A stretch of 41,372 nucleotides of DNA from an uncultured Prevotella sp. (GTDB lineage: Bacteria > Bacteroidota > Bacteroidia > Bacteroidales > Bacteroidaceae), in assembly GCA_900315545.1 (NCBI GenBank), contig OMZM01000020.1, positions 1-41,372 on the forward strand, written 5' to 3'. Numbering within the stretch: position 1 is the stretch's first letter; the number at the start of each line of letters is the position of its first letter. A program made the translations under genes and the position numbers. Shown one piece after another: positions 4,138 to 28,641 of this stretch. Under the pieces are notes generated by a model. That model searched no databases. It saw only the letters and a program-made list of their open reading frames with translations, and was not told where the DNA came from.

Positions 4138-5505
4138 ATGTTTGAGAATCTAAGTGATAGACTTGAGAAAAGTTTTAAGATATTAAAAGGTGAAGGCAAA
4201 ATTACCGAAATAAATGTTGCCGAAACCCTGAAAGACGTCAGGAGAGCCCTGCTCGATGCCGATGTCAACTACAAGGTTGCCAAGAGTTTTACCGACACTG
4301 TTAAGGAGAAAGCACTCGGTATGAACGTACTTACTGCCATCAAGCCTGGACAGTTGATGGTGAAACTGGTACACGACGAACTGGCAGAACTGATGGGCGG
4401 CGAAATAGCAGACATCAAACTGGAAAGCCATCCGGCGATAATCCTGATGTCGGGTCTGCAAGGTTCTGGTAAGACTACTTTCTCTGGTAAGTTGGCTAAC
4501 ATGCTGAAGAAGAAACAGCGCAAGCATCCTATGCTCGTAGCCTGCGACGTCTATCGTCCAGCTGCTATAGAACAGCTGAAAGTAGTTGCATCGCAGATTG
4601 ACGTACCAGTGTACAGCGAAGAGGGTAATAAAGATGTTGTGAGCATTGCACAACATGCCATAAACGAAGCAAAGCAGAAAGGCATAGACGTCGTAATCGT
4701 CGACACAGCAGGCCGACTGGCTGTAGACGAGGAGATGATGCAGGAGATTACCAGACTGAAAGAATCTCTGAATCCTGACGAGACACTGTTCGTCGTTGAC
4801 TCAATGACTGGACAGGATGCCGTAAATACTGCAAAAGAATTTAACGACAGGCTTGATTTCGACGGCGTGGTGCTTACGAAACTCGACGGCGACACACGTG
4901 GTGGTGCTGCACTTTCTATCAGAACGGTAGTAAACAAGCCAATAAAGTTTGTAGGAACAGGCGAGAAAATGGAAGCTATAGATGCTTTCCACCCTTCACG
5001 CATGGCAGACCGCATTCTTGGCATGGGAGATATCGTTTCGCTTGTTGAACGCGCTCAGGAACAGTTTGACGAGGAAGAAGCAAAGAAACTGCAGAAGAAA
5101 ATACAGAAAAACCAATTCGACTTCAATGACTTTTATAACCAGATACAGCAAATAAAGAAGATGGGTAACCTGAAAGACCTGGCATCCATGATTCCCGGTG
5201 TTGGCAAGGCTATAAAAGACGTTGACATCGATGACAATGCTTTCAAGAACATTGAGGCAATAATACAAAGTATGACTCCAAAAGAACGTACAAATCCGGA
5301 AGTACTGAACTTGAGTCGCAAGCAGCGCATAGCTAAAGGTTCGGGCACCAAGATTGACGAGGTAAACAGGCTGATAAAGCAGTTTGACCAGACACGCAAG
5401 ATGATGAAAATGGTTACAGGCGGCTCGAAAATGGGAATGATGAACAAGATGATGGGTATGAAAGGTGGAATGCCTATGATGCCTGGAATGCCAAAAATGA
5501 AATAA
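4138..5505 (+). CDS. ffh: Signal recognition particle protein Ffh (SRP54)
   Basis: A full-length 455-residue SRP GTPase that binds the 4.5S RNA and delivers nascent membrane and secreted proteins to FtsY. The N domain occupies about 1-90. The G domain shows the P-loop GLQGSGKTT at 106-114, DVYRPAA near 138, DTAGR near 188 and TKLDGD near 246. The M domain after about 300 is methionine-rich and ends in a run of Met/Gly ([19 protein letters not shown]), the flexible signal-sequence and RNA-binding part. The ATG follows a clear promoter. folD starts only 8 bases after the stop, so the two are co-transcribed. Confidence 0.97.
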
Positions 5506-5513
5506 TACAAAAC

Positions 5514-6392
5514 ATGCAGATAATTGACGGAAAAGCTACAGCAGCACAAATAAAGGCTGAAATAGCAGAAGAAGTAAAAAACATAGTGGCACAGGGAGGC
5601 AAACAGCCTCATCTGGCAGCCATACTGGTAGGACACGACGGTGGTTCTGAAACATACATGAAGAACAAGGTTCTAGCTTGTGAGGCATGCGGTTTCAAAT
5701 CATCGCTCATCCGCTTTGACGAAGATGTTACAGAAGAAGAACTGCTGAAATGTGTGGAAAAACTCAACAACGACGATGACGTTGACGGATATATCATCCA
5801 GCTCCCATTGCCAAAGCACATCGACGAGCAGAAAATCATCATGGCTGTAGACTACAGGAAGGATGTTGACGGTTTCCACCCTATAAACGTAGGACGCATG
5901 TCGATAGGACTGCCGTGCTTCATTTCAGCTACACCACTGGGAATAATAACACTCTTGCAGAGATACGGAATAGAGACTTCGGGCAAGAAATGTGTTATTC
6001 TTGGACGTTCAAACATAGTCGGCAAGCCAATGGCGCAGCTGATGATGCAGAAGAACTACGGCAATGCAACGGTAACCGTATGCCACAGCCGCTCGACTAC
6101 TCTGAAAGAAGAGTGCATGGCGGCAGACATCATCATTGCAGCAATCGGACAGCCTGAATTTGTAACGGCAGACATGGTTAAGCCTGGTGCTGTCGTTATA
6201 GACGTAGGCACAACACGCGTTCCAGATGCAACTCGTAAAAGCGGCTTCCGCCTGTGCGGCGATGTCAAGTACGACGAGGTAGCGCCAAAATGTTCTTATA
6301 TAACTCCTGTACCAGGCGGAGTCGGTCCGATGACAATATGTTCACTGATGAAGAACACATTGGCAGCAGGCAAGAAAGAATATTATAAATAG
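5514..6392 (+). CDS. folD: Methylenetetrahydrofolate dehydrogenase / cyclohydrolase
   Basis: A 292-residue bifunctional enzyme that interconverts 5,10-methylene-THF, 5,10-methenyl-THF and 10-formyl-THF in one-carbon metabolism. The N-terminal part has SETYMKNK with the catalytic Tyr48 and Lys52, and the signature [11 protein letters not shown] near 104 followed by DVDGFHP near 125. The Rossmann part has [16 protein letters not shown] near residue 160, VIDVGTTRV near 228 and the C-terminal [11 protein letters not shown] signature near 262. Length and motifs are complete. It lies directly behind ffh with an 8-base gap. Confidence 0.97.
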
Positions 6393-6416
6393 TATATAAC
6401 TCAACATAGATATAAA

Positions 6417-6597
6417 ATGACGGCAGAGGAATACTACAATCTCGGTAACGAATACCGTAAGAAAGGCGACTATCAGAATGCCCTTAACAACTATATGGAG
6501 GCCATAGAGCTTGACCCTGAGAGTCCGGCTGTTATTGCAAAGGAGTTTGTAGAAAACATACTGAACTACTATTGCAAACAGATGTATAATCCTTGAT
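6417..6597 (+). pseudogene. Short TPR protein, apparently frameshifted
   Basis: From the ATG at 6417 the frame reads MTAEEYYNLGNEYRKKGDYQ and continues as one tetratricopeptide unit with ALNNYMEAIELDPESPAV. It then runs into an AAAA tract at 6539-6542, after which the original frame gives KGVCRKHTELLLQTDV and stops at 6590 (57 residues). Skipping one A gives KEFVENILNYYCKQMYNP and a stop at 6597, an amphipathic tail that looks far more like a TPR capping helix. From memory, small single-TPR proteins of this kind precede 2-oxoacid:ferredoxin oxidoreductase genes in related genomes. Either a one-base insertion disabled the gene or the read contains an error. The upstream TPR part is well supported. 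Confidence 0.6.
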
Positions 6598-6744
6598 GTG
6601 CCAATGAGATAATATCGCATGACAGGTCAGCTATGACCCAAGTGTAAGAATAATAAAACTTTCAATAATAATAAAAACAGAAAAGCGTTTGCGACCAAGC
6701 GAACATCGCATTCGCCAACTGCGTTATCTTAAACAAAAAATATT

Positions 6745-9502: not shown

Positions 9503-10852
9503 ATGACACTCAATACAACATTTTCTGCATTTTATAAATACATCTTCCTGCTGTTTTTCATAGTGGCAACTGTAATGAGTAGCCATGCTGCCAATCTGTC
9601 AAACAATATTGTTTACGCTACAAACGATGCAGAAAGCATTATGACAACGCATAATGACAGCGCTGCTAATGCCATGAAACATTGGGGAATGTCGGTCTAC
9701 GGTAATCCTGGCATACTGATGGCAACCAATGCAGAACAGAAGATGTACATGAAAAGCAAGATGAGTGTCAGCATGAATGCAGAAATACTACACTCTGCCC
9801 TACCCTCAGACAGCAGTGCTTTTGATGAAGACTATAACTATCCGACAATTGGATTTGGAGTAAAAGTTGCACTCAACCACGCCATAAAACTACACAAGCC
9901 ACAAAGCGAGGCTTTTGGAATGGCAGAAGAAGTTGACTACAAAACAAAACTTGGCAATACTGTCAGTTTCTACGGAACATTCGCGCGACCGTTCCTCAAA
10001 ACAAAACGCTGGCAGGCTGACTACACCATGAATGTCGGTATTGCATATTCTCACAGGAAATATAACAATGTAAATGCTATCGACAATGAACTGATAGGAG
10101 CAAGATGGCTTATATTCTTCGGTGCCGGTTTACATGCCACATGGCATTTTCATCCTGAATGGGGACTAAAATTCGGGTTGGACTATTGGCACCTTAGCAA
10201 CGGAGCCATGAGCAGACCAAATAAAGGGGCAAACATCATCGGACCATCATTGGGATTCATATATACACCTTACTACAGAGAAACAATAAAGCCTATAAAC
10301 AGGAAACCGGAGGACAACAAATATGTATATGTTGAAGTAACAGGCGGTATAGGAGTAAAATCACTCTACGAGGACTGGGCACGAACTCAGTTCGACACAC
10401 CAAAAGATGACCCTGAGTACAGGAAAGATCAATTTGCCACCTATGCCACCATGTCGCTGCAAGCCGACCTGATGTGCAGATATGCACGCCGATGGGCAAG
10501 TGGCGCCGGAGTGGATGTTTTCTACGGAACATATTACAAGCGACTGAGAACCATCGACGAAATTTATGGACACAATGCAGGGCACAGTCCTATATCTGTC
10601 GGAATAGCTGCCAAACACGAGATTTTCTACCATAATTTCTCTTTTGCTGTTGCCGTCGGATACTACATCTATCGCGAAATGGGACACAAGGCATACCTCA
10701 ATGATGCACCTTACTATGAACGCGTGGGATTGCACTACACCATTCCGAAACTTGCCAACCTTAAACTTGGTATCAACGTCAAGGCACATAAGGGCAAGGC
10801 TGACTTCACGGAGATAGTATTCGGAATGCCTATAAAGATAAAACGACTCTAA
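9503..10852 (+). CDS. PagL-like acyloxyacyl hydrolase / outer-membrane protein
   Basis: A 449-residue exported protein with an N-terminal signal (hydrophobic stretch at about 13-28, AHA-like end). It is rich in alternating aromatic strands typical of beta barrels. The segment YWHLSNGAMSRPNKGANIIG near residues 228-247 matches the lipid A deacylase PagL/acyloxyacyl hydrolase signature, with His230 and Ser232 as the expected catalytic pair. The glutamate of the P. aeruginosa triad lies 14 residues after the histidine. Here that position is Asn244, so activity is uncertain. A second half from about 270 looks like further strands ending in KIKRL. No promoter matches the consensus in the 38 bases after the preceding terminator. 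The alternative is a generic outer-membrane barrel. Confidence 0.7.
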   Translation: MTLNTTFSAFYKYIFLLFFIVATVMSSHAANLSNNIVYATNDAESIMTTHNDSAANAMKHWGMSVYGNPGILMATNAEQKMYMKSKMSVSMNAEILHSALPSDSSAFDEDYNYPTIGFGVKVALNHAIKLHKPQSEAFGMAEEVDYKTKLGNTVSFYGTFARPFLKTKRWQADYTMNVGIAYSHRKYNNVNAIDNELIGARWLIFFGAGLHATWHFHPEWGLKFGLDYWHLSNGAMSRPNKGANIIGPSLGFIYTPYYRETIKPINRKPEDNKYVYVEVTGGIGVKSLYEDWARTQFDTPKDDPEYRKDQFATYATMSLQADLMCRYARRWASGAGVDVFYGTYYKRLRTIDEIYGHNAGHSPISVGIAAKHEIFYHNFSFAVAVGYYIYREMGHKAYLNDAPYYERVGLHYTIPKLANLKLGINVKAHKGKADFTEIVFGMPIKIKRL

Positions 10853-10967: not shown

Positions 10968-12773
10968 TCATTTAAGAAGTATTGCTTTGGCTGTTTTATT
11001 ATCCATATCAGGCATTGTCATACCAACACGCGCTCCGATATATGTAGGGTCGCAGACAATATAACGTTCACCATTTAGTTCCACGTAGTCACCCGAAACG
11101 TCCATATTGAAGCGAACAGCCATTGCAAGATGTCCCGGATAATATATCAATACTGTTTTCAAACCAAGAAGATCACGTACCAACCTTGACAGTAGTATGC
11201 TTCTGTCTTCGCAGTCTGCGTATGGATAGAAAAGAGTTTCCTCTGCAAAGAAAGCGCGGTCATATCCCCATACAACGTCATCATACTCGTAGATGAATGC
11301 TGTTTGTACCCAGTTGAGCAGTCTTTCGACAGCCTCTTGTTCGCTAAGTCCAAATAATTTCTCTTTCATTTGTGGATATAGCATCTGCTTTACTTCCTCC
11401 TGAATAGGTACATTGCCATTCACAGCCCACCGTGTCATTATATTGTCGCCATCTATTGACGATGGATAACTGGCGTAAAAGTCTATCAGATTTTTGTTTA
11501 CGCTTACCTCAAAATCCCAATCATTATAACGTCGCGACTGTAAAGATCTCAAATCAGTAGGACTGTCTGCCAACATGGGCTCTTGGTTTATCCATAAAGA
11601 CAACTGCTGTTCGTTTGGATATTTGGCTTCACATAGCTTTATCTGATTTATATCGCCACCATATACATAATATTCGTTGTTGTCAAGAATATAGTAACTC
11701 TGTCCATATATAATATGATTTGACGCATAAAGCATATACAACTTGTCGTTGCTTATTGCCAACCTCATCATATATCCCGTTTGTTGGAACAGATATCCCA
11801 TCAGCAATGTAGCTTCATTGTGAGTTTGAAAACAAGCCTTCGATAAAGCATCAAGCATCTGAAGATAAGCCCAATCGCTCAGTTGATAGTGTATTCTTAG
11901 TTCCAGACAATCCCTTATAGTATTATTGAAATCAGAACTTGCAAGTTTTTCAAAAACATCAGCCACTCCATCTTCCGTTACGCTTGTCAGCGAGAATACT
12001 TCCTTACCGTTAAATCTGACTTGCATTGGTGTGCCATAAAACGTAAACTCCACATATTCCACACTATCCTCTAATTGCTCCTTTATTGGGTTTGCAGGAA
12101 TTGGTTGCGGTTTGGGCATAGGCAGTGTAAGTACACGTCCTTCTATTTTTATTGGTTCACTTTTTATTACGGGCAGGTCGTCTATCTTTGGAATAACTAC
12201 CGGAGGGACTTCTTCTATCACGGGCTTTGGTCGTGGAGGTTCTGCTCCAAACTCTTTCCAAGCATTTCTCATAAAATCTGCATATTCCCGTATTGCCTGC
12301 TGTCGGAATTGATCATATTTCTGGGTAGCCTCTCTCTGAAACGCAATATATTGCTCATCAAAACTTTGACTTGCGACAGCAACTTCACGCGTAACCGTTG
12401 CAGGATCACTGTATCGTCTTGACGTAAGTTCACCATTTCCTTTGACACGTGCCTTTATATAAGAAAGATACTGACCTGTAAGTTTCATTACAGCATTATT
12501 CCTATCTTTCATCATATTGGTAATGCTTCCTTGTCCAGGTGTCTTTAACGTATATTTCTTGCTTCCACGTTCATCCAACAGTTCAACTTTCGAGTTGTAA
12601 GGTATATTTATCACACTTTGCGGCGATAGTTTTTCGCGTAGTTTCAACTCACGATTTGAGTCATCCTTTACCGCCGTAACTTTTCCCGTAATGCTTATTA
12701 CAGTATATTGCTGTCCAAACACCGGTATCATCATATAGAACAGAAATATTGGAAGAAGAAATAATCTTTTCAT
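10968..12773 (-). CDS. Exported transglutaminase-like protein with FecR/SH3-like N-terminus
   Basis: A 601-residue protein starting MKRLFLLPIFLFYMMIPVFGQ, a clear signal peptide. A TTG 42 bases upstream is less likely. Residues about 22-85 resemble a FecR-like beta domain (TVISITGKVTAV to TLKTPGQGSI). Next come a charged helical stretch and a Pro/Lys-rich linker (about 175-235), then a large alpha/beta region. The C-terminus has a transglutaminase/cysteine-protease triad: Cys521 in YPYADCEDRS, His548 in YYPGHLAMAV and Asp575 in YIVCDPTY. This DCEDRS...GHxA...CDPTY pattern is known in transglutaminase-like proteases. It is the last gene of the seven-gene caspase cluster, 34 bases after the CHASE2 gene. 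The substrate is unknown; it may process or crosslink an envelope protein. Confidence 0.75.
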   Translation of the reverse strand: MKRLFLLPIFLFYMMIPVFGQQYTVISITGKVTAVKDDSNRELKLREKLSPQSVINIPYNSKVELLDERGSKKYTLKTPGQGSITNMMKDRNNAVMKLTGQYLSYIKARVKGNGELTSRRYSDPATVTREVAVASQSFDEQYIAFQREATQKYDQFRQQAIREYADFMRNAWKEFGAEPPRPKPVIEEVPPVVIPKIDDLPVIKSEPIKIEGRVLTLPMPKPQPIPANPIKEQLEDSVEYVEFTFYGTPMQVRFNGKEVFSLTSVTEDGVADVFEKLASSDFNNTIRDCLELRIHYQLSDWAYLQMLDALSKACFQTHNEATLLMGYLFQQTGYMMRLAISNDKLYMLYASNHIIYGQSYYILDNNEYYVYGGDINQIKLCEAKYPNEQQLSLWINQEPMLADSPTDLRSLQSRRYNDWDFEVSVNKNLIDFYASYPSSIDGDNIMTRWAVNGNVPIQEEVKQMLYPQMKEKLFGLSEQEAVERLLNWVQTAFIYEYDDVVWGYDRAFFAEETLFYPYADCEDRSILLSRLVRDLLGLKTVLIYYPGHLAMAVRFNMDVSGDYVELNGERYIVCDPTYIGARVGMTMPDMDNKTAKAILLK

Positions 12774-12807
12774 TTCAGTATACATATAATTTATTTCGCT
12801 GTTATAA

Positions 12808-13944
12808 TTATCCAAAGCAACGTCTTAGTGTCAATCCATAGAACTCTCCTGCTCCTCCAATAAATGGTATTGCAGCCATAGCCCAACCAAGATTTATACT
12901 AATGTCTGTTGTCATAAAAATAAGGAAAGTCAGCCATACCAAGAACGCCGACCATATAAACAGGACTATACCCACAACAAAAGTTGAGGTAAGGAAGAAT
13001 CTCATCCATTCCGACTTATTACTTTTCGCCCATTTCATATAGCCTTTACGCCACAGATATGTAACAAGAACTATTATAAACGATATAATTGCCGTCAACC
13101 ATCCTGGCAGATGGCGTACCTCTGTCTGTTCAAGCAAAGTCTGTATCGAATACGCAAGCAACTTGACGCCTGCCATCTCGCCCAATGGAGTGTAGTGCAT
13201 GTCAGCAAGTTCATTCATCGCGCCAAACAACACAACATGGTCCTTTATTAAATCCTTATAGTATCTTATAGAATCACTCGGAACAATACGAAATTCCGTT
13301 GGGCGGAAATTCACGGAAACATCCGTCTTGCCATTATCAATAAGTTTGCCTTCTGAATACAACTTTGCCACTTCATATACAAGCGAGGTGCGTTCCTCGC
13401 CCATATACGGGCGTCTGAGGCTTACTTTACGCTTTAGTCCTCCGTACAGAGTACGCTCAAAATTAGTAAATCCTTCCTTCGCACCTGTAAATCCAGAGAA
13501 GAAGGAATGTATCTCATTTGTATAGCCTATTGTATCATTTACATAGTCAAGCATACGGTATGAATAGACTGCATTCGGGTATTTGTCTGCAAGTTCCATC
13601 AGTTTCATATCGCTTATGGAGTCTTGTTTAAGTCCTTCATATACGACATCTACTCCCACAGCCTTAGGCGACAAAGCCATAATCTCCTCGTATGCATCTG
13701 CAATTTGAGAACGCTCAGACAAGTCTGTCATGTCGACAATGGTTATGACACGACTTGTGTCAACCCTGCCATATTCCTGCTGCACATGATAATATATGTC
13801 AGTCAGCGAGAAGTCAGACATGGTGTGGGCTATCGGGCTCAGAAACGTCATGTTCAGAGCCAGTGAAGCCAACAGTCCCATTGCAAAGAATGCAAAGAGC
13901 ACGATAGTACAATGTCGCAAGAACTTTTTGACAGTCTCACTCAT
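12808..13944 (-). CDS. CHASE2-domain membrane protein without an output domain
   Basis: A 378-residue membrane protein. One N-terminal helix (about 12-32, IVLFAFFAMGLLASLALN) leads to a periplasmic CHASE2 sensor: TSRVITIVDMTDLSERSQIADAYEEI with ALSPKAVGVDVVYEG at about 63-105, and DHVVLFGAMNELADMHYTPLGEMAGVKLLAYSIQTLL at about 235-275. Three or four C-terminal helices follow (LTAIISFIIVLVTYLW, FFLTSTFVVGIVLFIWSAFLVWLTFLIFM, AMAAIPFIGGAGEFYGL). CHASE2 usually feeds a kinase, cyclase or other cytoplasmic domain. Here the protein ends after the helices, so any signal must pass to a partner. It lies between the caspase and transglutaminase genes, 33 bases after the caspase stop. Confidence 0.85.
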   Translation of the reverse strand: MSETVKKFLRHCTIVLFAFFAMGLLASLALNMTFLSPIAHTMSDFSLTDIYYHVQQEYGRVDTSRVITIVDMTDLSERSQIADAYEEIMALSPKAVGVDVVYEGLKQDSISDMKLMELADKYPNAVYSYRMLDYVNDTIGYTNEIHSFFSGFTGAKEGFTNFERTLYGGLKRKVSLRRPYMGEERTSLVYEVAKLYSEGKLIDNGKTDVSVNFRPTEFRIVPSDSIRYYKDLIKDHVVLFGAMNELADMHYTPLGEMAGVKLLAYSIQTLLEQTEVRHLPGWLTAIISFIIVLVTYLWRKGYMKWAKSNKSEWMRFFLTSTFVVGIVLFIWSAFLVWLTFLIFMTTDISINLGWAMAAIPFIGGAGEFYGLTLRRCFG

Positions 13945-13977
13945 ATCGTATGCCTATATATATAAAATGTACAATAT

Positions 13978-15495
13978 TTAGAATTGCATGTTACGCCATT
14001 CTACTATCTGTCCTGAAGCCACCGTTGCCGGAGTTTGCTTCTTGCGCATCTTCAGCTGCATTGCACGCTGCGAAACATTATAGCCAATGTTGTCAGACAG
14101 TCGTCCGAAAGTGATGAATCCTTCAGTTTCCTTTAATTCTTTCAGCAGATAGTATGTAAACAGTCCATGTCCTTCCTCTGGCAGTCCCTGAGCCGTTTCA
14201 TTACCCTGTGCCGCAGAGAACACTACGAGTGAGCCTTCGCCGAGTGATGTCTCCTCAGCCTCTATCTCTACACCACGCAGACCTTCCGACACTCCTTCGT
14301 TATCGCGGTTGACTCCGCTGAAGCATGCATCGAGGAATACTGATGTCTGTGCAAAAGCCAGTTCGCCCAGCTTGCTGTAGAATTCATCGAGGGCTATGCC
14401 GCGTTTTGGATTTGTTCCTCGAACGTCAGTCGGCAGTATATATGCCTTGTTCTTATTCTTAATGTCTGGCACACCATGTCCTGCATAGTAAACTATGAGT
14501 TTCTTATACTCACGGTTAGGAATGGTTGAAGCCCAGTCTTCCAGTTCTTCCTCCAGAATCATTTGCTTTGTAGCATCTTCTGCGATGTGGATGTTTTCAG
14601 CCGGCAAGCCCAGTGTCTTCTTACAGTACTCAGCAAACACGCGTGCATCATGAATAGCGTATGGCACGTCTGCTACGAAACGATAGTTCTGGTTTCCGAT
14701 AATAAGCGCGTATGTTTCGTTTCTTGTATAATATCCTTGCGGTATCATCTTGTCTACATCTGACGTAGCAAAGTCGTAGTCGACGGCTGTAGCCTTGCTC
14801 TTTCCGAGACATTTCTCCACTGAGACCATCGACAGACCGTATTCCTTGCTGTTTCTCACGTTTACGTAAGAAGGCAGTGTGCGTATTTCTCCGTTATACA
14901 GTGTATGGCGCAGTGCACCGTTTACCATTACCTCGTTTGCGAATACATAGTGTCCGAGTATAGACGTAGGTCCTGTTTCCACAGATTGCAGGTTCGTACA
15001 TGAAGCATACGCCTTGTCGCCAACACGGCAACGGTCAGGTATCTTTACCGAAGGCAACTGCGAGCAGTTTGCAAATGCTATTGCACCAATTTCGCGCAAC
15101 TGTACGGGCAGGGAAATATTGCGCAGTCGTGAACAGTTAAGAAACGCTCCCCACTTTATTTCCTGCAAGTCTGTTGTCTGGAACACTACTTCCTGAAGGT
15201 TTGTACAGTTTGCGAATGCACACGAACCGACCTTTGATATAGCCGGACCTATGACTACTTTCTTTACGTTAAGTTTCTTTTTTGTCCATGGAGCAATGTT
15301 GTTTTTCACGTCATAGTCCATGATGCTCACAAGTTCTCCTCTTTTGTTTATATTAGTGATTGTAAGAGTGTATCCGTCGAATGTCCACTTTGCGTCCATA
15401 CCACAATTTCCTACTACTCTCAAAACGGTAGACTGTGCTGAAGCATTTGACATGAAAAGCACTGTCAATATCAATGCAACGAAATATCTTTTCAT
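13978..15495 (-). CDS. Exported BspA-LRR / caspase (C14) fusion
   Basis: A 505-residue protein with signal peptide MKRYFVALILTVLFMSNASA. Four BspA-type LRR_5 repeats occupy about 93-190 (AFANCTNLQEVVF, AFLNCSRLRNISLP, AFANCSQLPSVKIP, AYASCTNLQSV). A caspase domain covers about 258-485: TYALIIGNQNY opens it, His340 lies in LIVYYAGHGVPD and Cys391 in TSVFLDACFSG, the classical C14 dyad, followed by VVFSAAQGNETA and HGLFTYYLL. Both catalytic residues are intact, so it should be active, outside the cytoplasm. BspA repeats usually mediate protein binding or adhesion. It is fifth in a seven-gene minus-strand cluster. An 18-base gap separates it from the gene before. Its substrate and any activation trigger are unknown. 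Confidence 0.88.
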   Translation of the reverse strand: MKRYFVALILTVLFMSNASAQSTVLRVVGNCGMDAKWTFDGYTLTITNINKRGELVSIMDYDVKNNIAPWTKKKLNVKKVVIGPAISKVGSCAFANCTNLQEVVFQTTDLQEIKWGAFLNCSRLRNISLPVQLREIGAIAFANCSQLPSVKIPDRCRVGDKAYASCTNLQSVETGPTSILGHYVFANEVMVNGALRHTLYNGEIRTLPSYVNVRNSKEYGLSMVSVEKCLGKSKATAVDYDFATSDVDKMIPQGYYTRNETYALIIGNQNYRFVADVPYAIHDARVFAEYCKKTLGLPAENIHIAEDATKQMILEEELEDWASTIPNREYKKLIVYYAGHGVPDIKNKNKAYILPTDVRGTNPKRGIALDEFYSKLGELAFAQTSVFLDACFSGVNRDNEGVSEGLRGVEIEAEETSLGEGSLVVFSAAQGNETAQGLPEEGHGLFTYYLLKELKETEGFITFGRLSDNIGYNVSQRAMQLKMRKKQTPATVASGQIVEWRNMQF

Positions 15496-15512
15496 AGTTG
15501 TCTGTTTTTATA

Positions 15513-16445
15513 TTATAATCTGAATTGAATGTAAATGCGGTTGAGTGAAGACTTAAACTTATAGGTTTTCTCACCAAAATCGTCTGTCGAGATAGCCTTG
15601 TATTTTATGTTTGCCACACGGTGCTCATAGCCGAGACCGATAAACTTCCATACAACGCTGAAGCCGAAACTGCTCGTCGTTCCGTGTCCCCAGTTTATCT
15701 TGGTATTGTCAGCCATGTCCTCGTAGTAGTTGTTTCCCTCCGTGTTTAGGTCTGCCTTTTCTTCGTTCACCATGTAAAGACCAGACACATGGTATCCGAA
15801 GTGGTAATACATATAGAATTGCAGATAGTGCGCGTCCTTAGAGCTCAGTCCTGTCAGAGGGTTGAAGGTTATGGAAGGACCGAGATTCATGCCATAGTTG
15901 AACTCGTATTTCTCAAGGTTCCACGGAATATAGTAATCATCTCCGTTCTTTACCGAGCTGTCGTATGCCTTTCCGTTTGCATCTGCTTCCATGTCGAAAT
16001 GGTTGACGTTGAGGTCTACCCATGTATAGTCGATGTTGAACTGCAGCATGTTTGAAATGGCTTTCTTGTGCAGTCTGTAACTGCGACCCGACTGCAATGA
16101 CAGTCCCCAGCTGCTCTTGTAGTCTGGCACGTTGCGTCCGTCATATCCGAGTGCGATGTTTTCCTGCGGCATAAGCTGTGCTGAGCAGTACGACAGGTTT
16201 AGATACGAACGGCGTGCCCAGATGTCGTCTATATGTTTTTCCATTGTGTGACGACTGTTGACATCTTGCAGTTCGTTTATGATATCATTTACAGACATCA
16301 CATCGGTGGAGTCGTCCTGCAACTCTAACTTTACTGTAGAATTGTCGACTGCGGCTGCATTGTCGACAACATAGGTACTGTCTTCTTGGGCTGATGCCGT
16401 TATTGCGAGCATGCAAGCCACGAAAAAGGGAATGTGTCTCTTCAT
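15513..16445 (-). CDS. Putative outer-membrane beta-barrel protein
   Basis: A 310-residue protein with signal peptide MKRHIPFFVACMLAITASAQ. After an acidic, probably unstructured stretch (about 21-75), residues about 80-310 alternate polar and aromatic residues in likely beta strands (YLNLSYCSAQL, WGLSLQSGRSYRL, LQFYMYYHFGYHVSGLYMV, FGFSVVWKFIGLGYEHRV). It ends in RIYIQFRL, compatible with a barrel-closing strand. I do not recognise a family. Within the cluster it could be the outer-membrane partner that anchors or exposes the caspase. It starts 37 bases after the stop of the DUF4384 gene. Confidence 0.6.
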   Translation of the reverse strand: MKRHIPFFVACMLAITASAQEDSTYVVDNAAAVDNSTVKLELQDDSTDVMSVNDIINELQDVNSRHTMEKHIDDIWARRSYLNLSYCSAQLMPQENIALGYDGRNVPDYKSSWGLSLQSGRSYRLHKKAISNMLQFNIDYTWVDLNVNHFDMEADANGKAYDSSVKNGDDYYIPWNLEKYEFNYGMNLGPSITFNPLTGLSSKDAHYLQFYMYYHFGYHVSGLYMVNEEKADLNTEGNNYYEDMADNTKINWGHGTTSSFGFSVVWKFIGLGYEHRVANIKYKAISTDDFGEKTYKFKSSLNRIYIQFRL

Positions 16446-16482
16446 ATTTTACGTTTTACTTGTTAATAATCTTATTTGTTTA

Positions 16483-17376
16483 CTATTTCGCTGTTGGTGT
16501 GTTTTTTATTTTTATCCACTTTTTGTCTACCACCATTTCCTTGTCTGCACGCTGGCATTTCAGCAGCCATTTCTGAAAATCGTGCGTGCTCAGCGTATTC
16601 GGCTGACGTGCATTGACTGTTATGTCGTTGCACTTTGTGAATGGGTTTGGCGAGTAAATCACCACTATCTGGTCGTTCTCCTGTGGATGTTTTGTCTTCA
16701 TGCGGTAATATGTCGCAGCAGCATCTATTGCCTTGTCGAACAGCACATATTCCTTTCCGCCTCTCACGTAGAAACGTCCGCCAGTGTCTTTCGGATATGG
16801 CAGCAGGCACGAGGTTTCGTCGTCGCCTTCTATAAGATAGACGGCAAGATATCCGTCTGACGGAGCGCGGAACGTCATGTATATGCGGTCGTTGTTGTCA
16901 AACGTCATCGTAGGCAAACGCTTGTCTGCCACGTCCTTCATTATGCTCCATTTTATGTCGGCTTTTGCCTGTACTATCTCACGTGCAGTGCCCCACACTT
17001 CTGCCTTGAAGGTCAGTTTTCCGCCACTGTAGTCTACGCTTATCAGCGGCTCGGTGGTGTCGCCGAGCCAGTCGCCCTTTGCCATTGCCACAGTATTTTC
17101 CCAGAAATACGAGGCTGTAGACTCGCCGTTGGTTTCTACATTGGTATCGATTACGTCTGACGTAATCATTTCTCCAAACTCGCTCTTTATGGCTTGTGCC
17201 TTTGCCAGCTCTATGCACTTGTGGCGCGCTTCCCTAAGGGTTATGTTGTCGTTCTCGCCTACAACGTATGAATATTCGCCATGCACATGGGCTGTGCGCT
17301 GTGCCGACACTGTGGCAGAAACAAGCGCGAGGAGGGTGAGGAGTATGTTTTTGCGCATATTCTTCATATTTTTCAT
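16483..17376 (-). CDS. Exported DUF4384 protein
   Basis: A 297-residue protein with a signal peptide (KNILLTLLALVSATVSAQ). The start could be any of three in-frame ATGs at 17376, 17367 and 17358. The N-terminal part (about 28-140) has VHGEYSYVVGENDNITLREA followed by a helix rich in Ala/Lys (KCIELAKAQAIKSEFGEM), resembling FlgT-N/LPP20-type domains and the two genes upstream. The C-terminal part (about 165-260) matches DUF4384: IYMTFRAPSDGYLAVYLIEG, then CLLPYPKD and GRFYVRGGKEYVLFDKA. DUF4384 is often fused to, or found beside, bacterial caspases, as here. Its role is unknown. Confidence 0.8.
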   Translation of the reverse strand: MKNMKNMRKNILLTLLALVSATVSAQRTAHVHGEYSYVVGENDNITLREARHKCIELAKAQAIKSEFGEMITSDVIDTNVETNGESTASYFWENTVAMAKGDWLGDTTEPLISVDYSGGKLTFKAEVWGTAREIVQAKADIKWSIMKDVADKRLPTMTFDNNDRIYMTFRAPSDGYLAVYLIEGDDETSCLLPYPKDTGGRFYVRGGKEYVLFDKAIDAAATYYRMKTKHPQENDQIVVIYSPNPFTKCNDITVNARQPNTLSTHDFQKWLLKCQRADKEMVVDKKWIKIKNTPTAK

Positions 17377-17392
17377 CAGTATTTCTATGAGA

Positions 17393-17914
17393 TTAATCCG
17401 TTACGATGAACAGCGACATCACCTCCACCGTATTGTCTTTATTCTCACGATACAGCGTTACGGTCGGCACGAGTGCCTTCACCTGCTGTTCGGTCGACGA
17501 CGTGTAGGATGCGTCGAACTGTGTCTCCGAATGGGCTTCACTGCTTTCCGTGTTGGTCATGTTTATGTTCGACGTGCCGGCAACGTGCGATTCTCTCATC
17601 GTGGCATACTGTGCCGAAGCATTGCTCTGTGCCTTTCTGACGGCAATGTTTACTGAGTTAGCCGTGCCGCGACCTTCTATCGTATATGCCACAGTGCCCG
17701 ATGCGCCGAGCTTGCCGTAGTATTCTTCCAGTGCCTTGTCTACGGTTTGCATTTTGCCGTAGACCTTCCAGCCCTCCTTGTTGAGCCGTTTTGTCATCCT
17801 GCGGCATTCCTTTTGCAGTTCCTTGCCTGAGATGTCTGACGATGACGCGCAGGCACTGCCTGGAAGAAGCGTGAGAAACAGATACAGAAATGCTGCTGCA
17901 AATGTCTTTACCAT
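17393..17914 (-). CDS. Short exported protein, paralogue of the preceding gene
   Basis: A 173-residue protein with an N-terminal signal (TFAAAFLYLFLTLLPGSACA). The cysteine lies in GSAC, which is not a good lipobox, so signal peptidase I cleavage is likelier. Residues about 32-70 (ELQKECRRMTKRLNKEGWKV followed by VDKALEEYYGKL) align with the previous gene's EAKKLKKDGWLTAPGALPVE and KQLDRSY. Residues about 87-110 (NSVNIAVRKAQSNASAQYA) align with its AAKMQAIELAKQQIASQI region. It lacks a catalytic motif. The reading frame overlaps the upstream gene by 7 bases (ATG within the end of that gene), indicating translational coupling. Confidence 0.7.
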   Translation of the reverse strand: MVKTFAAAFLYLFLTLLPGSACASSSDISGKELQKECRRMTKRLNKEGWKVYGKMQTVDKALEEYYGKLGASGTVAYTIEGRGTANSVNIAVRKAQSNASAQYATMRESHVAGTSNINMTNTESSEAHSETQFDASYTSSTEQQVKALVPTVTLYRENKDNTVEVMSLFIVTD

Positions 17915-18576
17915 CCTAACAATTCGTCTAACTTGTTCTTCAATCCTTCGTCCTCAAGTTGTGCCCTTGCAGCCCTCTTTGCCATCTCTCTGGCTTTGCT
18001 GCTGCTGTATGCCAGTCGTACGAGCACTTCCTTGTTTTTGTTGTTCAGTGTCCTGTACACTTCCACTACCGGCATCATGCGTCCGAGTCCCTGCGAGATA
18101 AGGCTCTTGGCTGCCGTGATGCTCTTTGTTACAGATGCTGCCTCGCCTGCCGAAAGCTGATTGTTGGCTACGTTAGACTCCACGAGTGCCGTCAGTTCTG
18201 TCTGTATCTGCGATGCTATCTGCTGCTTTGCCAGTTCGATTGCCTGCATCTTTGCAGCGTCATAGTTTTCGCCGATGCTCATGCCCTCGCCCATCATGTA
18301 GACTGGCAGGAAGTCGTCGTCCATTTCCATCTGCATCCTGTAAGAGCGGTCAAGCTGCTTTTCCACAGGCAGTGCGCCGGGAGCGGTCAGCCAGCCATCT
18401 TTCTTCAGCTTCTTGGCTTCTGCGCGTGCCGACTTTGTGGCTTTCTGATTGAGTTCCGACTCTGTCAGTTTCTTCATTGCCTTGTAGTCCTTGATTCTTT
18501 CAGTCTGCGACTGAGCATTGACGGGTGTTATAAATCCGAATAGAACAACACCTAAGATTAAATAAATTCTCTTCAT
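17908..18576 (-). CDS. First gene of the caspase cluster, exported helical protein
   Basis: A 222-residue protein starting MKRIYLILGVVLFGFITPVNAQ, a good signal peptide. An in-frame ATG at 18600 is possible but adds a polar stretch. The body is alpha-helical: AEAKKLKKDGWLTAPGALPV and EKQLDRSYRMQME, then YDAAKMQAIELAKQQIASQI, then a C-terminal basic helix (SSKAREMAKRAARAQLEDEG). The Ala-rich helix preceded by a small beta region resembles LPP20/FlgT-N-type proteins. It is the leading gene of the minus-strand cluster, with a TATATTTG box about 115 bases upstream. No enzymatic motif is visible. It is related to the next gene. Confidence 0.7.
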   Translation of the reverse strand: MKRIYLILGVVLFGFITPVNAQSQTERIKDYKAMKKLTESELNQKATKSARAEAKKLKKDGWLTAPGALPVEKQLDRSYRMQMEMDDDFLPVYMMGEGMSIGENYDAAKMQAIELAKQQIASQIQTELTALVESNVANNQLSAGEAASVTKSITAAKSLISQGLGRMMPVVEVYRTLNNKNKEVLVRLAYSSSKAREMAKRAARAQLEDEGLKNKLDELLGW

Positions 18577-18690
18577 AGCTCTGTTGGTTTTATTATTCAT
18601 ATTGTTTTCTGTTCTTCCTCAGGTTCATTTCTGAATATTGCGGACGGTAAATTTGCATACCAAGCGCAAACACAATTAAAAAATATTTTG

Positions 18691-18698: not shown

Positions 18699-18870
18699 AA
18701 CATTATCTACGTATTCTCCCCCCGTTTTAGTTAAAGGTTGTTAACTCGTGTTTTTTCGTTTAAATTTAGTGAATTTATTTTGACAGAGAAAAAGGTGCAA
18801 AATAGAGAAAAAAGTGCCTCTTTGAGGGTTGGTAACAGCAATTTTATGGGTCGGGGTTGGGTGCCGAAAT

Positions 18871-19025
18871 TGTCAAAGAGTATGTTTGAGGCTTGCTATT
18901 TTCTGTTTTTCGGCGTGTGAAAGAGTATGTTTGAGAGTGTCAAACAGTGTGTTTGAGGTTGTCAAAGAGTGTGTTTGACATAGAAAAAGGGTGTATTTGA
19001 GTAGAAAAAACAGTATAAATTTCTA
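18871..19025. repeat. 22-bp periodic dyad array, locus 2
   Basis: Units start at 18871, 18893 (degenerate, 23 bases), 18916, 18938, 18960, 18982 and 19004 (degenerate). The best are TGTCAAAGAGTATGTTTGAG (18871), TGTCAAACAGTGTGTTTGAG (18938) and TGTCAAAGAGTGTGTTTGAC (18960). It has the same TCAAA-N7-TTTGA dyad and the same period as at 271-446. A further weak relative ends in CTCTTTGAG near 18826. The array lies about 170-330 bases upstream of the caspase-cluster promoter box. Confidence 0.75.
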
Positions 19026-25257: not shown

Positions 25258-25299
25258 ATGAAAACACTATTTACCATAATGAAAACACTATTTACCATA
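25258..25299 (+). repeat. Exact 21-bp tandem duplication at the start codon
   Basis: The 21 bases from ATG at 25258 to 25278 are repeated exactly at 25279-25299. Both copies encode MKTLFTI in frame, so two equivalent start codons precede the signal peptide. Confidence 0.95.
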
Positions 25300-28200
25300 T
25301 TATCACTCCTTCTTTGCAATCATGTTTTTGCAAACCCTATTGACAACAGAAAAGCAGAACAAATAGCCATGTCGTTTGTTGCAGACAAAACAAACAGTAA
25401 TAAATCCATTGCCACGCAGCAAACACGACTCACACAAATACTTGAGCCAAAGAGTAAACAGAGTGGCAAGAGTCTGCTGCATGTTTTCAACCGAAACGAC
25501 AACAACGGCTATATCATAGTTGCAGCCGATGATAAAGTAAGTCCAATTATTGCATATTCAGACGCTGAAACTCTCGACTTAGACGACATGCCGGACAATT
25601 TGAGAAGCTGGCTCGAATATATGTGCGAACAAATGACTGACATTATTGACAACAATGCACTTCCACTGAACATTCCTGCACACGCAATTCAACAGGAAAT
25701 TACACCAATGATAAAGACGCAATGGGGTCAGGGGAGTCCATACAACAGCCTCTGTCCTACCAATGGCAATGGAAACAAATGCCTTACGGGTTGTGTAGCT
25801 ACTGCTATGGCGCAAATAATGAACTATCATAAATACCCAGAGAAAGGGTTTGGCAGTAATACATATACATGCAACATAGATGACGTACCGACGACATTAA
25901 GTGCAAACTTTGGTAGCACAACATATCAATGGTCTGACATGGAAACGAGTTACGATGACAATAGCAGTATCAACGCCTGCAACGCAGTAGGTACACTGAT
26001 GCTACACTGTGGCATTGCAACAGATATGGCATATGGAACGTCATCAAGCAGCACAACGATAAAGAAAGTAAAGACATCTCTCGTACAGTATTTTGGTTAT
26101 TCTCCGGCGACTTATACTAATTACGGTTTACAGCCTAAGTTTGAAAACATCTACTATGACGTGTTAAACAGCCTGTCAGAAGGCTGTCCTGTACTGTATG
26201 GAGGTCAGAATAAGGAAATGACTTCGGGACATGCGTTTGTCTGCGACGGGTTCAAAGAGGGGCTTTTTCACATGAATTGGGGTGCTGACGGCAAAGGAGA
26301 CGGCTATTTTGCATTGTCGCTTCTAAACCCATTCTACAGAGATTACACCTACAATCCAGACCTGCTTCTGTACATCAAGCCATCGCAGTATATAGATGAT
26401 AATATGTTTCAATACGATTTTAAAGACGGTGAGGCTACCATTGTGGGCAACAGCAGCGTCAACGAGACAGTAACCATTCCTGCATATATCAACTACAACG
26501 GTATATCCTACCCTATCGTTCGCATATATAAAGATGCTTTATACTACAATAAGAATATTAAAAAGATAATTATAGACGACTCTGAGCAACCACTTATAGT
26601 AGACAAAAATGCTCTGCCAAACGATATTACATCGCTATATATTGGCAGAAACATTGAAGACACTGACATTTTCAGCAACAATCCATATCTTAAAGAACTG
26701 ACTTTCGGACCGAATTTCACTACTATCAATAGCCGAATGTTCTACAACTGTACTGCCATTGAATGCATTTCAACACAGAATGTGCAGACAATAGGCGACA
26801 AAGCTTTTGCCAACTGCCATCAACTTAACAATATTACTTTTGGCGATAAGGTTTCAAGTCTGGGCAGTTCAGCTTTTCAAAATACATCTATCGAGTATAT
26901 TGATGCTAAAAACCTAGTATTAATAGGAGACAGCGCATTCAAGGATTGCACATCGCTCAAGCAGGTAAATCTTGGCAATAAAGTCAGAAGAATTGGCAAT
27001 TACGCCTTTTCCCACAATGGTAATCTGAAAGAAATGACTCTGCCCAACTCACTTGAAAAGTTGGGTTGCAACTGCTTTGAAGAGTGTGTTAATTTGGAGA
27101 AAATAGTATTTGGTAGTGGTTTAAAGGCTATCAAAGACCGCACTTTCAGCCACTGCGCCTTATTAAGTAACATTGTTTTGCCTGCTACGCTGAACGACTT
27201 AGGAGAAAACACATTTGAATATTGCTGCAACATCGAATCTATTACCTTGCCTGACGGTATTGCAGAAATAGGCGAAGAGTGCTTTTTGGAGTGTACTGGT
27301 CTAAAGGAAATAAACTTGCCTGGCAATCTTACAGAAGTAAAAAAGCGAGCCTTTTTCAACTGTTCGTCATTGCAAAGGATAACCCTCCCCAATACGCTGA
27401 CCAACATCGGTTATGGCAGTTTCAGAAACTGCAAGTCCATCATGGAGATAGACTTTTCTGATAATCTTATCAACATAGATACAAAAGCCTTTGCCGGATG
27501 CGAAAGCATCGAAAAAATATCGCTGCCATCCAGTATTGAGAGCATGAAGGAAGCAATTTTCAAGGACTGTACAGGTCTGAAAGAAATAAACATTCCAGAA
27601 AAGATAGATTATATACCTTACGAGACTTTCTCTGGCTGTAAAAGCCTGCAACATGTCATTACAAAGGAGAACCAACTTAACAGCATTGGTGGAATGGCAT
27701 TCTATAATTGTTCATCGCTGAAAATTATTCCGGACATAAACAACCTTAGCATAATAGATATTCAAGCATTCTATGGCTGCGAGAGCCTGAAGGAAATAAA
27801 TCTCTCAAAGACTATAAAACGTCTGGAAGCCAACACTTTCACTAATTGCAAAGGGATAGAGTCTGTAGACATACCAGACAATGTAATGAGTATTGAGGAA
27901 GCATGCTTTCAGGGCTGTGAATCACTGCGCAAAGTGCATTTGCCAAAGAGTGTAAGAGCACTGACATGGCAGGTTTTCGGAGGTTGCACAAGCCTTGAAG
28001 AAATAAACTTCCACGACGGAATAACCGAAATATACGACGAGGCTTTCTGTCCTAACACAAACACAGACAGCAACGACGGCATTGCAATAACAGAGCTGAA
28101 ACTACCAGAATCACTTGAAGTATTGGGAACAGATGCATTTAGAGACTGCCACAGGCTGAAAACATTAGACTTACCGTTATCGTTTATAAGAAACGACCGC

Positions 28201-28641
28201 TTCATATATGAGAGTGCTTTTGCCTCATGCGAAAACATACGCACCATCTTTGTACATTGGGACAAGAGCAACAAGGAAAAGTTTGACAAATCACGGCTAT
28301 ATATCGACTTTGATGACGATGTTTTCATGAAAGCGACTTTGTTTGTCCCTGTCGGCTCACTGGAAATGTATCAGCAACACGACTACTGGAAACGGTTTAA
28401 GAATATTATGGAATATGACGTGGCAAATATCAGCCATGACCCTGTCAGAGAAGTTGACTTGCGGTTGTCCGGCGACTATCTATTGGTAAACACTAACACA
28501 AAGAACGTAAAGGTTTACGTCTACGACAGCAGTGGCAATAAGGTTGGCGAGAGCAACGGCTGCAATGATTCTATAAAACTTAAACTCAACAATGTCTACA
28601 TTATTAAGTATAATGGTAAGAGTTTTAAGGTTAGATTATGA
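25258..28641 (+). CDS. Secreted C10 (streptopain-type) protease with BspA repeats
   Basis: A 1127-residue protein. A signal peptide (MKTLFTI twice, then LSLLLCNHVFA) is followed by a Spi/SpeB-type propeptide (about 28-120). The C10 domain spans about 150-375, with catalytic Cys179 in KCLTGCVATAMAQIMNYH, His325 in MTSGHAFVCDGF and HMNWGADGKGDGYF near 338. From about 490 to 1005 there are some 22 BspA-type LRR_5 repeats of about 23 residues (A/CF-x-x-C-x-x-L-x-x-I-x-L-P). The last 75 residues form a beta-rich tail ending VYIIKYNGKSFKVRL, like a type 9 secretion C-terminal domain. It is probably cleaved on export and shown on the cell surface, where it may cut host or microbial proteins. The repeats would hold it to a surface. 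The start may be 25258 or 25279. Confidence 0.92.
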   Translation: MKTLFTIMKTLFTILSLLLCNHVFANPIDNRKAEQIAMSFVADKTNSNKSIATQQTRLTQILEPKSKQSGKSLLHVFNRNDNNGYIIVAADDKVSPIIAYSDAETLDLDDMPDNLRSWLEYMCEQMTDIIDNNALPLNIPAHAIQQEITPMIKTQWGQGSPYNSLCPTNGNGNKCLTGCVATAMAQIMNYHKYPEKGFGSNTYTCNIDDVPTTLSANFGSTTYQWSDMETSYDDNSSINACNAVGTLMLHCGIATDMAYGTSSSSTTIKKVKTSLVQYFGYSPATYTNYGLQPKFENIYYDVLNSLSEGCPVLYGGQNKEMTSGHAFVCDGFKEGLFHMNWGADGKGDGYFALSLLNPFYRDYTYNPDLLLYIKPSQYIDDNMFQYDFKDGEATIVGNSSVNETVTIPAYINYNGISYPIVRIYKDALYYNKNIKKIIIDDSEQPLIVDKNALPNDITSLYIGRNIEDTDIFSNNPYLKELTFGPNFTTINSRMFYNCTAIECISTQNVQTIGDKAFANCHQLNNITFGDKVSSLGSSAFQNTSIEYIDAKNLVLIGDSAFKDCTSLKQVNLGNKVRRIGNYAFSHNGNLKEMTLPNSLEKLGCNCFEECVNLEKIVFGSGLKAIKDRTFSHCALLSNIVLPATLNDLGENTFEYCCNIESITLPDGIAEIGEECFLECTGLKEINLPGNLTEVKKRAFFNCSSLQRITLPNTLTNIGYGSFRNCKSIMEIDFSDNLINIDTKAFAGCESIEKISLPSSIESMKEAIFKDCTGLKEINIPEKIDYIPYETFSGCKSLQHVITKENQLNSIGGMAFYNCSSLKIIPDINNLSIIDIQAFYGCESLKEINLSKTIKRLEANTFTNCKGIESVDIPDNVMSIEEACFQGCESLRKVHLPKSVRALTWQVFGGCTSLEEINFHDGITEIYDEAFCPNTNTDSNDGIAITELKLPESLEVLGTDAFRDCHRLKTLDLPLSFIRNDRFIYESAFASCENIRTIFVHWDKSNKEKFDKSRLYIDFDDDVFMKATLFVPVGSLEMYQQHDYWKRFKNIMEYDVANISHDPVREVDLRLSGDYLLVNTNTKNVKVYVYDSSGNKVGESNGCNDSIKLKLNNVYIIKYNGKSFKVRL

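Follow-up and report, generated by a model that had tools for sequence, protein, structure and literature searches.

Discussion of caspases in bacteria has centred on cytoplasmic enzymes of cell death or defence, for which few natural substrates are known. In a 41,372-nucleotide stretch of DNA from an uncultured Prevotella sp. (contig OMZM01000020.1, assembly GCA_900315545.1; hereafter the window), a cluster of seven minus-strand genes, g1 to g7, includes one (g5) whose product shares the Peptidase C14 domain and His-Cys dyad of bacterial orthocaspases and metacaspases, to which it adds a signal peptide, BspA leucine-rich repeats (LRR) and envelope partners. The Lap system (LapD-LapG-LapA; DvhD-DvhG-DvhA in Desulfovibrio), as laid out in those portions of PMC13090378 on which we draw, resembles the cluster in having an inner-membrane sensor and a LapG-fold cysteine protease; its retention module, with a helix and a conserved linker motif after it, has a putative counterpart in the retention-module-like domain found here. 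By the same portions of that source, Lap relies on a receptor for cyclic di-GMP (c-di-GMP), whereas the CHASE2 protein found here (g6) has no cytoplasmic domain, and its retention module belongs to a giant adhesin, whereas here the retention-like domain is fused to a protease (g7) or forms a short protein; the exported caspase-fold protease is an addition to the Lap scheme. CHASE2 is also linked to a caspase-fold protease, a metacaspase, in Trichodesmium, but there, in the sections of PMC3501461 and PMC2853523 available to us, the two form one chain with the caspase predicted to be cytoplasmic, whereas here the caspase is encoded separately and looks exported. Finally, the Burkholderia BiofilmReg operon also places a CHASE2 membrane protein beside an exported protein (LysM-FecR), but in the available part of PMC5192318 that CHASE2 belongs to a histidine kinase and no protease is described, and FecR is not recognised in our cluster; the signals perceived by CHASE2 are, according to the same part, not known. 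In the open-access literature that we searched we found no description of the system reported here, most subscription papers and preprints lying outside that scope.

The cluster consists of two units, (LPP20-like)-DUF4384-g4-LRR/caspase and LPP20-like-CHASE2-g7, which join and part between genomes, instead of the one seven-gene module proposed by an earlier reading of the letters alone (the sequence-only reading). We argue that it represents a real, recurring envelope system in which periplasmic proteolysis is likely. It links a caspase-fold protease of the C14 or CHAT type with a receptor and with a protein bearing a conserved candidate cut site, and each of these has an export signal or membrane segments. 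The features are as follows, export being predicted throughout (aa, amino acids):

17908..18600, minus strand: g1, open reading frame (ORF) for an exported LPP20-like protein, 230 aa
17393..17914, minus strand: g2, ORF for a smaller exported relative of g1 from the same profile family, 173 aa
16483..17376, minus strand: g3, exported DUF4384 protein (Pfam DUF4384), 297 aa
15513..16445, minus strand: g4, exported putative outer-membrane barrel, 310 aa
13978..15495, minus strand: g5, exported BspA-LRR/C14 caspase, 505 aa (LRR_5 2e-21, Peptidase_C14 4.3e-16)
14017..14712, minus strand: caspase domain of g5 (Pfam stretch 262-493)
12808..13944, minus strand: g6, 378 aa, membrane protein with a CHASE2 domain and no cytoplasmic output domain
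10968..12773, minus strand: g7, 601 aa from the ATG, exported LapG-like cysteine peptidase with an N-terminal retention-module-like domain
12483..12710, minus strand: retention-module-like domain of g7, residues 22-97 (strands 23-97; 5ix9 match; NF033682 E 0.05)
12387..12410, minus strand: linker motif SDPATVTR of g7, residues 122-129, candidate cleavage site after Arg129
11211..11213, minus strand: catalytic Cys codon of g7, Cys521 in the 601-aa form and Cys535 in a 615-aa form, conserved with His548 and Asp575

All seven ORFs are present, spanning 10968-18600 of the window in a host genome of 2.29 Mb that is 92% complete. The small gaps and overlaps of the sequence-only reading are there (from g1 to g7: -7, 16, 37, 17, 33 and -8 bases), the last value becoming 34 with the ATG start of g7 at 12773. 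A TTG start would extend g7 to 10968-12815 and 615 aa; we prefer the ATG form of 601 aa, which begins with the signal peptide. Signal peptides, noted on most of these proteins by the sequence-only reading, were judged by a home-made rule that all seven pass, although in g6 it marks the first membrane segment only. Among homologues the rule is passed by 71 of 76 caspases, 94 of 100 g7-type proteins, 62 of 64 retention-like proteins and all 19 CHAT proteases, as compared with 347 of 862 other genes (over 200 aa) from these loci, a set that may itself include many exported proteins.

The g6 protein matches Pfam CHASE2 at 63.3 bits (cut-off 26.3), with no second Pfam match, and its hydrophobic segments lie only at residues 8-38 (one segment) and 276-352 (a C-terminal cluster); with the last of them ending at about residue 352 of 378, no kinase, cyclase or GGDEF-type output is seen. 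By sequence, then, g6 sits in the membrane, its predicted sensor domain facing the periplasm, and lacks a cytoplasmic output domain. Pfam finds no c-di-GMP receptor domain (LapD/DvhD) in the seven proteins, and sequence searches of the PDB gave nothing useful for CHASE2. Among 251 genomes of the family, searched with CHASE2 as the only seed, 29 carry this kind of CHASE2 in 33 genes (34 rows, of which two are fragments of a single gene), and all 32 loci other than the window's were examined. The next gene on the same strand encodes a predicted exported protein with a retention-like domain in 31 of the 33 (loci and genomes carry our own L and G numbers); in L190 a caspase gene lies between the two, and L192 ends at a contig edge. 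CHASE2 thereby gains a recurring partner, and the part conserved beside it is the N-terminal domain of g7, which was absent from the sequence-only description. A predicted exported CHAT protease, a relative of caspases, comes next in 17 of the 33 loci (in L171 after a BspA-LRR gene), and C14 occurs in the stretch in six; four CHAT proteins were checked by Pfam, three with strong TPR matches, and the others rest on our own profile. The association of the CHASE2 sensor with proteases hence extends well beyond the host genome. In a tree of 70 CHASE2 sequences the LapG-linked types fall into one supported set of 38 with two CHAT-linked and one unassigned row, and partner labels change 16 times as against 38.8 in shuffles, a comparison that carries a long-branch warning; the nearest named sequences are from Prevotella or Prevotellaceae. 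In many CHAT loci, the gene upstream of CHASE2 belongs to a family with two scanned members, both OmpA-plus-barrel proteins; a WD40 label for cluster C2 was dropped when these two members were scanned, two families having been merged there. Separately, L046 holds a very divergent CHASE2-like protein (15625-16794, profile E 3e-10), preceded by g1-like, g3 and LapG-like genes, with a C14 caspase upstream.

Beyond the family, 109 of 296 genomes of the phylum have CHASE2 by Pfam. We picked 20 regions by choice, six with short CHASE2 (one from the same class, five from the same phylum) and 14 with long CHASE2. A protein matching the retention profile directly follows short CHASE2 in L261-L264, and L259 and L260 look alike by eye; in L260 and L262 a caspase is the third gene after the retention-like gene. 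In L261 the gene directly after CHASE2 (4758-6704) encodes a 648-aa protein in which a retention-like domain is fused with both C14 (60.3 bits) and OMP_b-brl_2 (28.2 bits against a cut-off of 27). At the 14 loci with CHASE2 of about 700-870 aa, a retention-like gene was seen only upstream in L269 (by eye) and as a profile match four genes away in L273, and we do not extend the pairing to these longer proteins.

It is conceivable that the CHASE2/retention-like pair is a receptor that reports to transcription via sigma/anti-sigma genes, given that L076, L092 and L284 have a sigma-factor-like gene, together with a small partner gene, next to caspase or g7-type genes. The one such gene scanned (L284) matches Sigma70_r4_2 at E 1.3e-4, below the cut-off; the two gene clusters occur in five and six loci only, and neither is in the window's cluster. 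We consider this explanation improbable.

The C-terminal part of g7 had been read as transglutaminase-like, and a transglutaminase that crosslinks envelope proteins, not a protease, would be the corresponding alternative. Transglut_core reaches only 17.0 bits against a cut-off of 23. By fold, the periplasmic protease LapG (BTLCP type) is closest: LapG rows have the best Z (9.2-10.1), and the top ten Foldseek rows are all LapG or putative proteases. The pdb_via rows mostly span residues 440-601, with residues 170-440 barely covered, and we do not claim a new fold for the latter. The nucleophile of g7 is set in D-C-E, as in DvhG, and a Cys-His-Asp triad with Asp and Glu flanking the Cys is kept in all 99 unique homologues (match of at least 200 residues), the flanking DCE being a biased count since one of the two scan patterns contained it. 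The structural model therefore points to LapG-like proteolysis, and we regard crosslinking as quite unlikely; of the circuit of proteolysis or crosslinking that the sequence-only reading suggested, the former half is favoured and the latter is not. The modelled N-terminal domain of g7 resembles the retention module of LapA-type adhesins. Type I secretion genes or a giant adhesin were not detected by Pfam in the seven genes or the PagL-like neighbour described below, the genome as a whole having not been searched.

At E 0.001 the host genome has a single C14 match, the other protease, g5. Pfam assigns it LRR_5 (76.7 bits) and Peptidase_C14 (59.8 bits, cut-off 21.4), and its dyad is in place as the sequence-only reading had it, with His340 in YAGHG and Cys391 in DACFSG; both residues are kept in 72 of 77 unique caspase homologues and in 21 of 22 LRR-caspases. 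The LRR stretches by themselves mean little, as BspA-LRR stretches are abundant in these genomes. The extracytoplasmic location put forward for this caspase agrees with its predicted export and that of its homologues. An envelope-triggered self-killing or anti-phage defence system, with the caspase as executioner, would be an alternative purpose of such an enzyme, and caspase-fold proteases are known effectors. The PADLOC caspase model matches g5 at E 2e-14, and in L037 (8244-14144) genes for a TIR protein and a protein of 772 aa come after the LRR-caspase gene, in place of CHASE2 and g7. However, the enzymes look exported, and the caspase was the sole PADLOC match among the eight proteins scanned, the other ORFs of the window not having been scanned for defence genes. 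We hold this alternative to be remote as well. As separate observations, three to five caspase-type genes precede CHASE2 in L061, L081 and L100, some cut by the contig end, and the five dyad-less caspases among the 77 (with LP or HS) all sit in these three loci; a further C14 family, shorter at about 288 aa, occurs in L092 and L109 close to LapG-like genes and members of the g1 family.

A full-length LRR-caspase was found in 13 of the 251 family genomes, a lower bound given that at most six candidates per genome were scored. Five of the 13 genes adjoin CHASE2 and g7, one (L285) adjoins g7 without CHASE2, one ends at the contig, and G303 has a g7-type gene about 8 kb away. Among the matches listed for 60 relatives, only G001 has another full-length LRR-caspase, and there a TIR protein comes after it. 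Of the 60 listed caspase places, at least 26 have one of the 115 g7-type places within 10 kb, as against about 0.8 expected if the 251 genomes are taken as 2.8 Mb each, and this proximity is therefore not due to chance. A scan of genome contigs seeded on g7 gave at least 583 confirmed relatives, of which the best 80, a sample leaning towards the window, have the g1/g2 family in 55 loci, g3 in 40, this type of C14 caspase in 40, the retention-like domain in 32, CHASE2 in 30 and g4 in 13. Where CHASE2 is present (30 loci), a g7-type or retention-like gene comes directly after it, that of L136 having no detected retention-like domain. All six families (g1/g2, g3, g4, LRR-caspase, CHASE2 and g7) are found in 17 of 133 annotated loci (the window, L037-L136 and L167-L198), or 15 full-set loci including the window's when L064/L169 and L079/L172, which we treat as duplicates since the contigs in each pair have equal length, are counted once each. 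Of the 14 others, 12 are MAG or 'uncultured' records; among cultured commensals, Prevotella sp. P5-50 (L073) carries CHASE2 together with the LapG-like gene. Their order is g1-g2-g3-g4-caspase-CHASE2-g7 in the window, L058, L060 and L167; g2-g3-g4-caspase-g1-CHASE2-g7 in L057, L059 and L087; g1-CHASE2-g7-g3-g4-caspase in L082, L090, L112 and (with an extra gene) L184; and g1-LapG-like-CHASE2-g7-g2-g3-g4-caspase in L064, L079, L088 and L101. That the set is rearranged and yet retained argues for a functional tie over mere inheritance.

The retention-like proteins (76, of which 72 are unique) share a layout of strands, then a helix, then the linker motif. Its Arg is kept in 64 of the 72 unique members, position 125 is Ala or Gly in 66 of 76 and position 127 Val or Ile in 69 of 76; residues 115-133 of g7, which contain the motif, are the sole stretch of the model with pLDDT below 50, so the linker is predicted to be disordered. 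Orthocaspases cleave after basic residues, as stated in the section of PMC6426788 on which we rely, and LapG sites come after the retention module, a helix and a DP motif (PMC13090378, in the part cited above); the linker thus has two candidate cutters, the caspase-family protease and the LapG-like domain. Of 30 unique short partners, which lack a LapG-like domain, 28 retain the Arg, and this favours the former.

From this linkage and domain content, which we observe directly, we infer from sequence a mechanism that we put forward tentatively, as somewhat short of an even chance: a proteolytic switch in the envelope, built by joining two units, in which CHASE2 gates cleavage of the retention-module-like protein by the caspase-family protease and so frees a LapG-like protease. 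The retention-module-like domain would dock on CHASE2; a periplasmic signal would activate the caspase-family protease or give it access; and the protease would then cleave at the linker, on the C-terminal side of the conserved Arg. The g7 protein of the window would thereby be split, its LapG-like part leaving the retention-like domain and then acting on an envelope target, perhaps the neighbouring LPP20-like, DUF4384 and barrel proteins. Such a scheme would resemble LapD-LapG-LapA with CHASE2 in place of LapD and the c-di-GMP arm absent. Rather less probable in our view is the broader generalization that signalling of this kind is spread throughout Bacteroidota, with an output-less CHASE2 and a retention-module-like protein as a fixed pair, an exported C14 or CHAT protease cutting one linker Arg, and the window as a caspase-to-LapG cascade. 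The Arg-cut cascade is best seen as a testable proposal. It raises the question of whether periplasmic caspases run signal-gated cascades, and whether the Lap principle is broader than the c-di-GMP control of adhesins.

Several findings weigh against this proposal. The locus could instead hold two independent envelope units, with CHASE2 and the retention-like domain controlling the LapG-like protease, which, on the pattern of Lap systems, would itself cleave the linker or some surface protein, and the caspase unit answering the same stress on other substrates. This would fit the five remaining caspase genomes (L279-L283), which have g3-g4-caspase only, without CHASE2 or g7 nearby, and which also limit the earlier idea of a seven-gene module; it would likewise fit L045, L168 and L170, where the CHASE2/LapG-like unit has no caspase in the stretch (as is the case for the LapG-like gene of L185), and the location of the DP motif where LapG sites lie. 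On the other hand, the two units keep joining in differing orders, caspases and g7-type genes lie close together far above chance, and the CHASE2 pair is coupled to CHAT or C14 even where no LapG-like gene is detected. We therefore think that independent units are a rather doubtful explanation, if a serious one. In six of the 33 CHASE2 loci (L180, L182, L191, L193, L194 and L195) we found no protease gene beside the pair, and the linker Arg is kept in these six too. It is missing in 8 of the 72 aligned linkers, including two unique LapG-fused ones with SDPATITM; the 72 sequences are related, three having been added by eye, and the conservation of the Arg may be due in part to shared descent. 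The DP of the motif is found in about half of the family (D in 40 of 76, P in 32 of 76). As for g7, the putative protease 3kd4 ranks first and LapG second when Foldseek rows are sorted by E, and no match has E below 0.001. The retention-like domain has a predicted-fold match at Foldseek E 0.1 (prob 1.00) and profile matches below cut-off, and PDB sequence searches gave no relevant match for it or for g7. A FecR label for the g7 N-terminus was also dropped, with no PF04773 match in g7 and 1.2% by hhalign against 24 Bacteroidales FecR domains; PF04773 is not among the matches listed (25 of 30 families) for 16 relatives of this domain.

The remaining genes of the cluster are less well placed. The g1 and g2 proteins, described earlier as two related exported proteins, are homologous in that a profile from either matches the same number of ORFs (73), with both labels on the same genes. 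The AF2 model of g1 (pLDDT 87.9) has Tip-alpha structures ranking first in Foldseek (best E 0.0055), and LPP20 (5ok8_B) follows with prob 0.93, TM 0.57 of target and a weak E of 0.13-0.14; a PDB profile search matched LPP20 weakly (E 0.47), and Pfam gave no LPP20 match in g1, g2 or six further family members (cluster A3). The DUF4384 gene had been correctly recognised, g3 scoring 27.5 bits against a cut-off of 27. No Pfam family exceeds its cut-off in g4 or three scanned homologues; g4 immediately precedes the LRR-caspase in the full-set loci shown and likewise in the caspase-only ones, and its identity as an outer-membrane barrel, suggested by the sequence-only reading, is backed indirectly by OMP_b-brl genes and domains in related loci.

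Around the cluster, the Bacteroidetes -33/-7 promoter has five matches in the window, none of them before g1. The gap upstream of g1 contains five copies of a 26-nucleotide repeat (18866-19002; copies 69-85% alike to the reference copy, with spacings of 45, 22, 22 and 22) that is possibly regulatory. Directly beyond the other end, a convergent gene on the opposite strand (9503-10852) encodes a PagL lipid A deacylase domain, and a large ORF of 1127 aa at 25258-28641 has BspA-LRR stretches resembling those of g5.

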